A DNA stretch of 64,000 nt from Gammaproteobacteria bacterium (GCA_023266115.1 JAHFRU010000002.1:186001-250000), one strand, 5' to 3'. Positions 35,784-39,155 are shown, counted from the first letter of the stretch. Notes: generated by a model from the letters alone, not told the origin. Numbers and translations are program-made.

Positions 35784-38700
35784 TTAGCACAATTTACCGG
35801 TTCCGGCACCCAGCCCGACGCTGTCAAGGGCAGACCGCAACAGCTCGATGTATTGATTCCGTACCGATGTCTTGTGGGAGATCAGTCTTGCAGATTCGGC
35901 AGGGATGTCGATTGTTTGCAGCCGTTTCAGAACGTCAACCGCGGATTCCGCCGACGGATCGATGCGATTCGATAGAAAGCTGTTAGCGGTTGCGAAGTGT
36001 TGCGGCGCCGATATTACAAACGCCGGGATGCCCAGCGAGGCGCACAGACCGGCGCCATCCATGCGGGCTGTAATCGTCATATCGAACGCATCGTAGATGC
36101 GCAGATAGTCGCTGGCGTCACTTGAGTAGTGAAAGTCCATGATATCCCCGAGCAGCGGCGTCAGCTCGGTGAGTTCACTGATATGGTGGCAGACCAGAAC
36201 ACACTCGTAGTGCCGGGCGAGTTCCCGGTACAGATTCACGGTGTAGTGAAAGATCGACGGATCCAGGCATTGGCTATTCCTGGGTGATATTCCGGGCGTC
36301 GATAATGCCAGGCGCTTTGTTTGCGTGCGCCGTGTTGCGGTCGGGGAGGACAGCAGCGTCAGGCAGGGCAGCTGACGGGGACTCAGCGGGCGGAGCATAA
36401 TCCCACATGCCGTGTCGCGAACCGTGACCAGCAGCGAGCGGATAAGCAGCAGTTGATCCAGGGCGGCGACTTGCTCGAATTGGGAATCTTCCGTGTCCGA
36501 CGCTGCGCCCAGGCCCAGATACATGGTCGGTATGGTCGTTTTGATAAGTCTATCGACCAATGGGCCGGCCATACCGCCTCGCCACGCCGCGATGCCGGTG
36601 AAAATTGCCAGATCAACGATTTCCAGATTGATGCCTGGATGCCATGAGTTGTCGCGCGTCGCCGACGGGTCGTGATAGTCGGCAGAGTCACGGCCATACG
36701 ATCTATCCGGCGCGTCAGACGCTAACTGCGCTATGTCGGGGTCTCGTCGGTGAACAATCGGGTTGAAGTCCCCGATCAGTTCCGTGAGAAGATTCTGAAT
36801 GCCATACCGCGCGAACTCGCCGTCAGTGTTGGTTGAGATCAGGATATTCGGCCGAACCGTCGGCCGGGAACGATTGAAACGCCGTCCTATCATCAAATTC
36901 GGTACGTCGTGCGATCGGTCATAGTAGCGCGCGGGCACCTGGCGGGTGGCGGCGACCGCACGAAGTTCCGTGGCCAGTGCGGCGAAGGTGCCGGGCCAGT
37001 CCCGCGGCTCGGGCTGGCGAAACAGACGCATGCTTGGATACCACGGGCTGTCGCTACGATCGAGCAACCAGCGCCAGTCTGCGACATAAGACAGCAGCAC
37101 CCACACAGGCTTGCCCATCGCTCCGGCAAGATGAGCGACGGATGTATCGACGGATATGACCAGGTCCAGGTTTTCAACCAGCGCGGCACTGTCAGCAAAC
37201 GTTAGTTGTTCGTCGGCAGCGTCGATCAGATGCATCCCCGCCGGCGGGTTGGCTGCCTGCTCCGCCCCTGTTCCTTTTTGCAGGCTGTGGAAAGTGACGC
37301 CAGGTATATCGCAGAGGCGTGCAAAATCTGCGAGCGCGCACGAGCGGTTCTTGTTATTGGCGTGACGCGGATTTCCCGCCCACGCGAGTCCAACATTGAG
37401 GTGTCCCGGAACCATTTTTTCCTTCCACAAGCCGATACGTGCCTGGTCGGCGTGCAGATAGGGAGCATCATTCGGGATGGTTCTAAACGTCGTACCGAAC
37501 AGCGCCGGCAGGCTCAGCAGATAGGCGTGATAATCGAAATCGACATCGGGTGCGGAACGCGTGTCCTGCACCAGGAGCTGGTCGATGCCCGGCAAACCGG
37601 CGAAGAGATCGATCAACCCCGGCGGGCACTCGAATATCACATGGGCACCCATCGCCTTTAGCATCGCCAGATACCGGACGAAGTGCATTGAGTCGCCGAT
37701 TCCTTGTTCCGCGTGCACCAGAATCCGCTTTCCGGCCAGCGGCTCGCCTTTCCAGCGCGGCTTTCTCATGGTCCGATGGTCAGGCCGTCGCTCCAGTATC
37801 CGGATACGTGATTCGTATGCCTTCCATGCGTCGGCAAAACGGCCGAGCGTCAACATCACGATACCCTTGTTCAGATGGGCGTCTGCAAGCTCGGGCTGAA
37901 TCATTATTGCCTCATCGAACCGGCCGTAGGCCGCGCTATAGTCACCCATGTCCTTAAACGCGTTTCCCATGTTCATATGGGCAGCCGCGTAATCGCGCTT
38001 GAGCGACAGCGCTGAGCGGTAATGCTGTATGGCGCCGGCAAAATCACCGTTTGATTTGAGCGCGTTACCGAGGTTGCAGTGCGCTTCGGCCATGCCGGGC
38101 TGTAGCTTCAGGGCGCTTTCAAAGTAGGCGATGGCGTCGGCGGTCTTGCCTTGTTGGCAGAGCGCATTTCCATAGCTGTTTAGCGTATGCGCATGTGCGG
38201 GATTGATCGCCAGTGCTTTTTCAAATAGCGGCAATGCGTCATCGATGCGATTTTGTTGCAGCTCCGCGAGCCCCAGGCTGTTCAGGGTGTCGACGTTGTC
38301 GGGCTCTATCGTCAGCAGCCGCCGATAACAGGCCGCCGCGGCTGCCGGCTCGCCCTTGCCATGCTGAAGTTCCGCGAGTATACGCAGCGCGTTGGCGTTG
38401 TTGCCGTCGCACTCCAGCGTCCGCCTAAACGCGTGGACTGCGTCGTCGGCGCGGTTCAGTTTCAACAGCGCGACGCCGAGGTTGAAATGGGCGAGAGAGA
38501 ATGCCGGAGCCAGCTCGATTGCGCGTCCGAAGTGTTCAATCGCCCGCGCCGGGTTGTTTCGTTTGAGCGCCACGTGCCCGAGGTTGTTGATTGCCTCGGG
38601 AAACGCCGGTTGCAGATGCGTTGCCCGGATATAACATTGCTCCGCATCGTCGATACGTTCCAGTTCAAGGTAGATACTGCCAAGATCATTCAGGACGCCC

Positions 38701-39155
38701 GGTTGTGCGGGGTCGATTGACAATGCCTGCTCACAGTGACGCGCCGCCTCGTCACATTGCCCGTGGTTCTGCAATAGTCCGGCAAGCGCAATATGCGCCG
38801 CCAGATACAACGGATTTATCGATAGCGCACTGCGGTGACAGGTAATGGCCTTGGCGGTATCGCCCGCGGCGGCGCAGGCCGAGGCCAGGTTCTGATAGTA
38901 GGACGGGGCGCGGGGATTGTGGCTGATTGCCTGTTCGATCAGGCTCGTCGCCGCCGCCAGATTGCCCTGTTGCAGCTCTGTCACACCCAGCAGATGCAAG
39001 GCGTCCGCATGACCGGGACTGGTGGCGAGAATCTTGCGATACAACCGCGCCGCACGCGCTATGTCGCCGGACTCATGCGCGCGCACGGCGTTATCGAGTA
39101 ATGCTGTGGATCGGGTTCCGGCGTCGGCGATTTTCTCGCTGGTGTTAGTGCTCAT
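35784..39155 (-). CDS. TPR - GT9 glycosyltransferase - polysaccharide pyruvyltransferase-like fusion protein
   Basis: A single 1123-residue frame with three parts. Residues about 15-440 are a run of about twelve 34-residue tetratricopeptide repeats (LGNALKSNGDFAGAIQHYRSAL type). Residues about 455-725 resemble family 9 (heptosyltransferase-like) glycosyltransferases: LVHAEQGIGDSMHFVRYLAML, VGLAWAGNPRH, SVDTSVAHLAGAMGKPVWVLL. Residues about 745-1110 resemble polysaccharide pyruvyltransferases: ILISTNTDGEFARYGIQNLL, MYLGLGA, VTVRDTA, and ITARMDGAGLCASLGIPAFVIS near the end. No membrane segment or signal is seen, so it is probably cytoplasmic. It converges on fliT and diverges from the GT41 pair. 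A role in modifying flagellin is inferred from position; substrates are unknown. Confidence 0.8.
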   Translation of the reverse strand: MSTNTSEKIADAGTRSTALLDNAVRAHESGDIARAARLYRKILATSPGHADALHLLGVTELQQGNLAAATSLIEQAISHNPRAPSYYQNLASACAAAGDTAKAITCHRSALSINPLYLAAHIALAGLLQNHGQCDEAARHCEQALSIDPAQPGVLNDLGSIYLELERIDDAEQCYIRATHLQPAFPEAINNLGHVALKRNNPARAIEHFGRAIELAPAFSLAHFNLGVALLKLNRADDAVHAFRRTLECDGNNANALRILAELQHGKGEPAAAAACYRRLLTIEPDNVDTLNSLGLAELQQNRIDDALPLFEKALAINPAHAHTLNSYGNALCQQGKTADAIAYFESALKLQPGMAEAHCNLGNALKSNGDFAGAIQHYRSALSLKRDYAAAHMNMGNAFKDMGDYSAAYGRFDEAIMIQPELADAHLNKGIVMLTLGRFADAWKAYESRIRILERRPDHRTMRKPRWKGEPLAGKRILVHAEQGIGDSMHFVRYLAMLKAMGAHVIFECPPGLIDLFAGLPGIDQLLVQDTRSAPDVDFDYHAYLLSLPALFGTTFRTIPNDAPYLHADQARIGLWKEKMVPGHLNVGLAWAGNPRHANNKNRSCALADFARLCDIPGVTFHSLQKGTGAEQAANPPAGMHLIDAADEQLTFADSAALVENLDLVISVDTSVAHLAGAMGKPVWVLLSYVADWRWLLDRSDSPWYPSMRLFRQPEPRDWPGTFAALATELRAVAATRQVPARYYDRSHDVPNLMIGRRFNRSRPTVRPNILISTNTDGEFARYGIQNLLTELIGDFNPIVHRRDPDIAQLASDAPDRSYGRDSADYHDPSATRDNSWHPGINLEIVDLAIFTGIAAWRGGMAGPLVDRLIKTTIPTMYLGLGAASDTEDSQFEQVAALDQLLLIRSLLVTVRDTACGIMLRPLSPRQLPCLTLLSSPTATRRTQTKRLALSTPGISPRNSQCLDPSIFHYTVNLYRELARHYECVLVCHHISELTELTPLLGDIMDFHYSSDASDYLRIYDAFDMTITARMDGAGLCASLGIPAFVISAPQHFATANSFLSNRIDPSAESAVDVLKRLQTIDIPAESARLISHKTSVRNQYIELLRSALDSVGLGAGTGKLC

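Follow-up and report, generated by a model that had tools for sequence, protein, structure and literature searches.

Glycosylation of flagellin has a bearing on motility, on how filaments assemble and on recognition by phages and hosts. A described enzyme that invites comparison with the gene presented here is FlmG of Caulobacter crescentus, a 596-residue flagellin O-glycosyltransferase in which a TPR domain that binds flagellins is joined to a GT-B domain, and which is needed for modification with pseudaminic acid (PMC7591256). In the variable region of Enterobacterales flag-2 loci, a standalone WcaK-like polysaccharide pyruvyltransferase (PPT) and a GT9 glycosyltransferase have been proposed as flagellar modification functions, their function being inferred only; there the two are separate proteins, and no fusion is reported (PMC6993521). 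The searched passages of a 2019 review of pyruvylated glycoconjugates contain no flagellin example (PMC6801904), and pyruvylation of flagellin is not a known modification in the literature that we searched. The open literature, with subscription papers barely covered, yielded neither a TPR glycosyltransferase with a PPT in its chain nor a report of flagellin pyruvylation, and as far as this literature was searched TPR-GT9-PPT fusions are undescribed.

We analysed a stretch of 64,000 nucleotides of gammaproteobacterial DNA (the window) in which one gene, placed in a flagellar cluster, encodes a TPR array, a GT9 domain and a PPT-like C-terminal domain. The protein resembles FlmG in having an N-terminal TPR arm followed by a GT-B domain, and a role on flagellin is suggested by analogy; it differs in that FlmG has no third domain and serves pseudaminic acid modification, whereas the window gene is adjoined by an rml operon. 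TPR-GT9 proteins occur across Pseudomonadota (40–51% identity to the window protein) and have the TPR arm and GT9 domain in common with it, but most of them stop 3–28 residues after the GT9 domain, and the window protein runs 380 residues further. With the PPTs of family PF04230 (CsaB, WcaK, Pvg1p) the C-terminal domain shares sequence homology, a GT-B-like model and the arginines equivalent to CsaB R148 and R306, but it scores under the Pfam cut-off, is without the His, WNxGDE and PEW motifs, and is fused to TPR-GT9.

The fusion gene and its flagellar locus

The genes of the window run in the order flgE to flgL, rmlBACD, fliC, flaG, fliD, fliS, fliT, the fusion gene (convergent), two TPR-GT41 genes, a PilZ gene and fleQ. 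The PilZ gene is atypical, and fleQ is accompanied by a sensor partner. The features on which the analysis rests are as follows.

27020..30423, plus strand: rmlB-rmlA-rmlC-rmlD, complete dTDP-L-rhamnose synthesis, a candidate donor sugar
30654..32084, plus strand: fliC flagellin (PF00669/PF00700), the likely target
34910..35365, plus strand: fliS (PF02561, E 5.8e-40)
35381..35728, plus strand: fliT (PF05400, E 2e-10), convergent with the fusion gene across a 55-bp gap
35784..39155, minus strand: TPR-GT9-PPT-like fusion gene, 1123 residues in a single ATG-started frame
35787..36860, minus strand: pyruvyltransferase-like domain, residues 766–1123, with PF04230 homology, catalytically degenerate
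36939..37784, minus strand: GT9 domain (PF01075), residues about 458–739, with GIGD and DTSVAHL motifs
37785..39110, minus strand: TPR array, residues about 16–457, 11 canonical repeats and weaker ends
39404..41227, plus strand: TPR-GT41 glycosyltransferase a (PF13844, E 1.1e-50)
41188..43536, plus strand: TPR-GT41 glycosyltransferase b (PF13844, E 2.6e-52)

Searches for relatives at the family and order level covered two genomes only. An orthologue in a sister species (gammaproteobacterial metagenome bin, VBWC01000003.1, locus L002), 1122 residues long and 93% identical, is flanked by the same neighbours as the window gene. Because the sister species has the same uninterrupted frame, the fusion frame is real, and an assembly, sequencing or frameshift artefact is ruled out. 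The N-terminal arm contains 11 canonical 34-residue TPRs in perfect register (residues 50–423) with one weaker repeat at either end, giving 11–13 in total. Residues 434–739, scanned alone, pass the PF01075 cut-off with a modest score (24.6 bits against 22), and the GT9 domain keeps the GIGD and DTSVAHL motifs (the N-terminal GD and D-x-S-x-x-H) that are common to other fused proteins. An earlier note, made from the sequence of the window alone, had described one uninterrupted frame of 1123 codons with about twelve TPRs and a GT9 domain, converging on fliT and facing two TPR-GT41 genes; each of these points is borne out. The two TPR-GT41 genes, which are OGT-like, are adjacent, overlap by about 40 bp and lie between the fusion gene, from which they diverge, and PilZ/fleQ.

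Origin and conservation of the C-terminal domain

Scanned against PF04230, the C-terminus falls just under the cut-off (E 6e-5 to 8e-5, 23.1–23.5 bits; cut-off 25.3), but tblastn finds PPT-family relatives, including one in Ilyobacter annotated as such (E 6e-35) and one in Agrobacterium pusense (E 2e-33), covering 85–90% of the region, and PF04230 is matched by eight of the nine aligned members of the domain family (best E 3.4e-34). Comparison of the sequence with solved structures gave no significant match, and viral contigs scanned with one relative at a time gave no new members. An AlphaFold model from three sequences reached a pLDDT of 48 and was discarded; with eight viral-contig relatives added, the input (window, sister species and nine viral-contig sequences) produced a usable, GT-B-like model (pLDDT 77.6, pTM 0.81), although a model built from functional relatives does not independently prove that the degenerate sequence itself adopts the fold. 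Foldseek searches with the model gave E about 1e-8 for GT-B enzymes of the PDB and E 2e-9 for WcaK-like PPTs, the top two matches in BFVD; Pvg1p (5AX7) was absent from the 50 matches listed. The PPT-family relatives, the PF04230 matches and the GT-B-like model with its WcaK-like matches together indicate that the domain is PPT-derived. Chance similarity to PPTs is ruled out by the relatives (E 1e-33 to 1e-35) and the GT-B-like model. The earlier note had likewise called this region PPT-like, and profile and structure comparison, named beforehand as the test that could overturn the assignment, came out in favour of it.

Standalone relatives of the domain are found in the vicinity of heptose genes. 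The Ilyobacter relative is adjoined by a GT9 gene, that of Sagittula by GmhA-HldE-GT9 and a HAD hydrolase (GmhB-like), and that of Agrobacterium by HldE and HldD; in three genomes of one genus a WaaF-like GT9 gene lies one gene away. GT9 or ADP-heptose genes occur within 5 kb of 7 of 8 relatives; for other PPT loci of the class the figure is 1 of 17 (Fisher p 1.3e-4). The comparison is limited in that a single genus supplied three of the eight relatives, some of the query genes were taken from the same loci, and the controls are drawn from the same class only. Enzyme types that in other genomes are encoded side by side are thus combined here in one chain. On a viral contig (IMGVR_UViG_3300045738_001611, 2231–4438), a PPT-family gene separates the heptose kinase half of HldE from its adenylyltransferase half. 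Two more viral-contig relatives agree, one with HldE1/HldE2 (L091) and one with a WaaC-like gene (L092), and more distant viral relatives are mostly without GT9 or ADP-heptose neighbours.

Three short segments define the state of the putative active site.

36807..36839, minus strand: remnant of the N-terminal WNxGDE loop (IST----NTDGEFAR), residues 773–783, with a four-residue deletion; the loop is lost also in the sister species
36414..36425, minus strand: TVRD, residues 911–914; R913 aligns with the invariant arginine of the family (CsaB R148)
36054..36065, minus strand: R-M-D-G, residues 1031–1034, replacing R-x-H-G; R1031 is kept (CsaB R306), and the position of CsaB H308 is Asp

The motifs VTVRD and RMDGAGL are thus present as the earlier note had read them, and both PEP-site arginines, R913 and R1031, are retained. 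The remaining catalytic motifs are not. Sixteen standalone relatives, drawn from viral contigs and from several phyla, all have W/F-N-x-G-D and R-x-H, and both fused orthologues have lost them; G-[TS]-P-E-[WY], intact or nearly so in the same 16, has its P-E-W changed to A-A-W or T-A-W in the fused domain; and the HDxR motif is likewise lost. The R-x-H-G site reads R-M-D-G in the window (Asp codon GAT) and R-A-Q-D in the sister species (Gln codon CAG), and this difference suggests that drift is tolerated where the His once stood. H308, its counterpart in CsaB, is part of the PEP site, and H308A and H308R are inactive, but H308K and H308S are active (PMC10435577); His is therefore not absolutely required, which counts against a loss of catalysis, as does the retention of the two arginines.

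Between the window and the sister species (dS about 0.17), the C-terminal domain is 88% identical and the remainder of the protein 95–96%. Its dN/dS of 0.36 compares with 0.17–0.21 for the TPR and GT9 parts, a difference that is not significant (p 0.06), and the neighbouring fliT and flaG have ratios similar to that of the C-terminal domain. Purifying selection acts on the domain (neutrality rejected at p 2e-6, and at p 6e-4 for its last half alone), and these ratios disfavour its being a neutral relic. Because the WNxGDE loop, PEW and R-x-H are lost, we read its sequence as that of a probably non-catalytic domain, and the purifying selection implies that the module is nevertheless kept. The window protein would then be an example of a glycosyltransferase that conserves within its chain a catalytic domain which has apparently been disarmed.

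Recurrence of TPR-GT9-PPT fusions

A PF04230 search of the class gave PPT matches inside very long frames and, with a profile search that added G125, revealed TPR-GT9-PPT fusions in the flagellin locus (the flgL-fliC-fleQ segment) of three other gammaproteobacterial families (G090, G125 and G183). The G183 and G125 proteins (920 and 915 residues) are encoded between flgL and fliC. The G090 protein (1109 residues; L088 9261–12587) carries a fourth, methyltransferase-like domain after TPR-GT9-PPT, and its gene follows fliT in convergent orientation and precedes a PilZ gene and fleQ, which is the slot and orientation of the window gene. One further fusion, in G220 (1711 residues; L060 4133–9265), contains TPR-GT9 twice and then the PPT; no flagellar cluster surrounds the gene as far as the contig extends. 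The earlier note knew of no such third domain in a TPR-GT9 chain, but the architecture recurs in these four fusions with the domain order of the window, in three of the four within the same flagellar segment. They differ from the window protein in their PPT, which is of another subfamily (profile-profile E 3.8e-5) with R-F-H-H intact, and in the separate ancestry of their GT9 domains. In a tree of 49 GT9 domains, a single clade of fused GT9s is rejected (log-likelihood difference 125, AU p 2e-74), which gives the architecture at least two origins; the tree and the differing PPT subfamilies rule out a common origin of all the fusions. Outside the class, G379 (L100 6458–9612) has a split version, in which a TPR-GT9 gene overlaps the PPT gene that follows it, the latter being of the G183 type.

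Flagellin loci have thus acquired the TPR-GT9-PPT architecture repeatedly and convergently, and we regard this as a stronger finding than the window gene itself. That both enzyme types were independently fused to a TPR arm within one and the same flagellar segment is a strong genomic hint of one pathway, and the members with intact motifs are good candidates for both glycosylating and pyruvylating flagellin; those of G125, G183 and G090 provide concrete genes with which flagellin pyruvylation can be tested. Judged by its conserved R-x-H, this group of three families is also a better fit for the proposal of the earlier note that such a protein builds or decorates a glycan in one step, a proposal that is not supported in the window, where the PEP-binding His, the WNxGDE loop and PEW are lost. 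That interpretation was right about the domains and the setting, but what it proposed for the third domain is probably wrong in the window species. A more tentative reading, which we think less likely than not, is that TPR-GT9-PPT proteins form a recurrent, convergently built class of single-chain enzymes that glycosylate and pyruvylate flagellin, and that the window lineage assembled its own from a heptose-linked PPT, then disarmed it and kept it for glycan recognition. If so, the recurrent fusions would give filaments a pyruvate-capped, negatively charged glycan.

Other elaborations of the TPR-GT9 theme were also seen. L016 encodes a tandem TPR-GT9 protein with a methyltransferase-like tail, and L030 and L032 encode TPR-GT9 followed by a second TPR array and, as read by eye, an apparent GT41-type domain.

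Possible functions of the window protein

We favour, with a probability of roughly 55%, the reading that the window gene encodes an FlmG-like TPR-GT9 flagellin glycosyltransferase with a probably non-catalytic PPT-like module. Such a protein would act in the cytoplasm, where the TPR arm would hold unfolded flagellin, a binding that is plausible by likeness to FlmG, and the GT9 (GT-B) domain would move a nucleotide-activated sugar onto flagellin or onto a glycan already there. The C-terminal domain would descend from a PPT of the kind encoded beside GT9/ADP-heptose genes and, having kept the predicted GT-B fold and the two PEP-site arginines, would most likely transfer no pyruvate and be retained as a structural or glycan-binding module. 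It counts against a role on flagellin that the fusion gene and fliT are read in opposing directions and that the fusion gene may be expressed on its own.

Three other explanations were weighed against this one. The C-terminal domain could still be active with a remodelled site, as a His-less pyruvyltransferase or an altered glycosyl- or acyl-type transferase, in a protein that builds and decorates its glycan. The selection on the domain (p 2e-6), the retention of both arginines, the tolerance of CsaB for H308S and H308K and the independent fusions with intact R-x-H in the same locus are all consistent with activity; we nevertheless think it unlikely, given the loss of the loop (by a four-residue deletion), PEW, HDxR and His together, the expected repulsion of PEP by an Asp at the His site, and the change from D-G in the window to Q-D in the sister species, which suggests that the site is under no catalytic constraint. 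The same motif losses could mark the domain as the decaying, now functionless leftover of a once-functional fusion, as could its lower identity (88%) and its dN/dS, roughly double the value of the TPR and GT9 parts. To this we give little credence: both species have the frame uninterrupted at the dS given above, nonsynonymous changes are deficient over the whole domain and over its last half (p 2e-6 and 6e-4), and the excess in dN/dS over TPR-GT9 is neither significant (p 0.06) nor out of line with fliT and flaG.

The GT9 family is best known for the heptosyltransferases of LPS. This, with the position of standalone relatives of the C-terminal domain in ADP-heptose and polysaccharide clusters and of the L060 fusion, which belongs to the other subfamily, outside a flagellar locus, would suit a protein whose target is a different surface protein or a glycan, either lipid-linked or of LPS, and whose gene lies among flagellar genes by chance. 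Such a target seems to us improbable: a TPR-GT9-PPT gene occupies the flgL-fliC-fleQ segment of three other families, the other GT9 genes of the window genome are located elsewhere (C22), and the TPR-glycosyltransferase architecture is that of FlmG.

For the favoured FlmG-like glycosyltransferase, dTDP-L-rhamnose and ADP-heptose are both possible donors, because rmlBACD lies in the cluster and the genome, encoding HldE, can make ADP-heptose; HldE and the five further GT9 genes all lie outside this locus. The placement of rmlBACD between flgL and fliC points to a rhamnose-containing flagellin glycan, and glycans of this kind are known in Pseudomonas syringae (PMC3927599). Elsewhere in the window (4716–11615), genes for a DegT aminotransferase, a GT2 glycosyltransferase, a formyltransferase-epimerase, a deacetylase-like protein and a PMT-type protein form a set that resembles the arn (lipid A aminoarabinose) operon.
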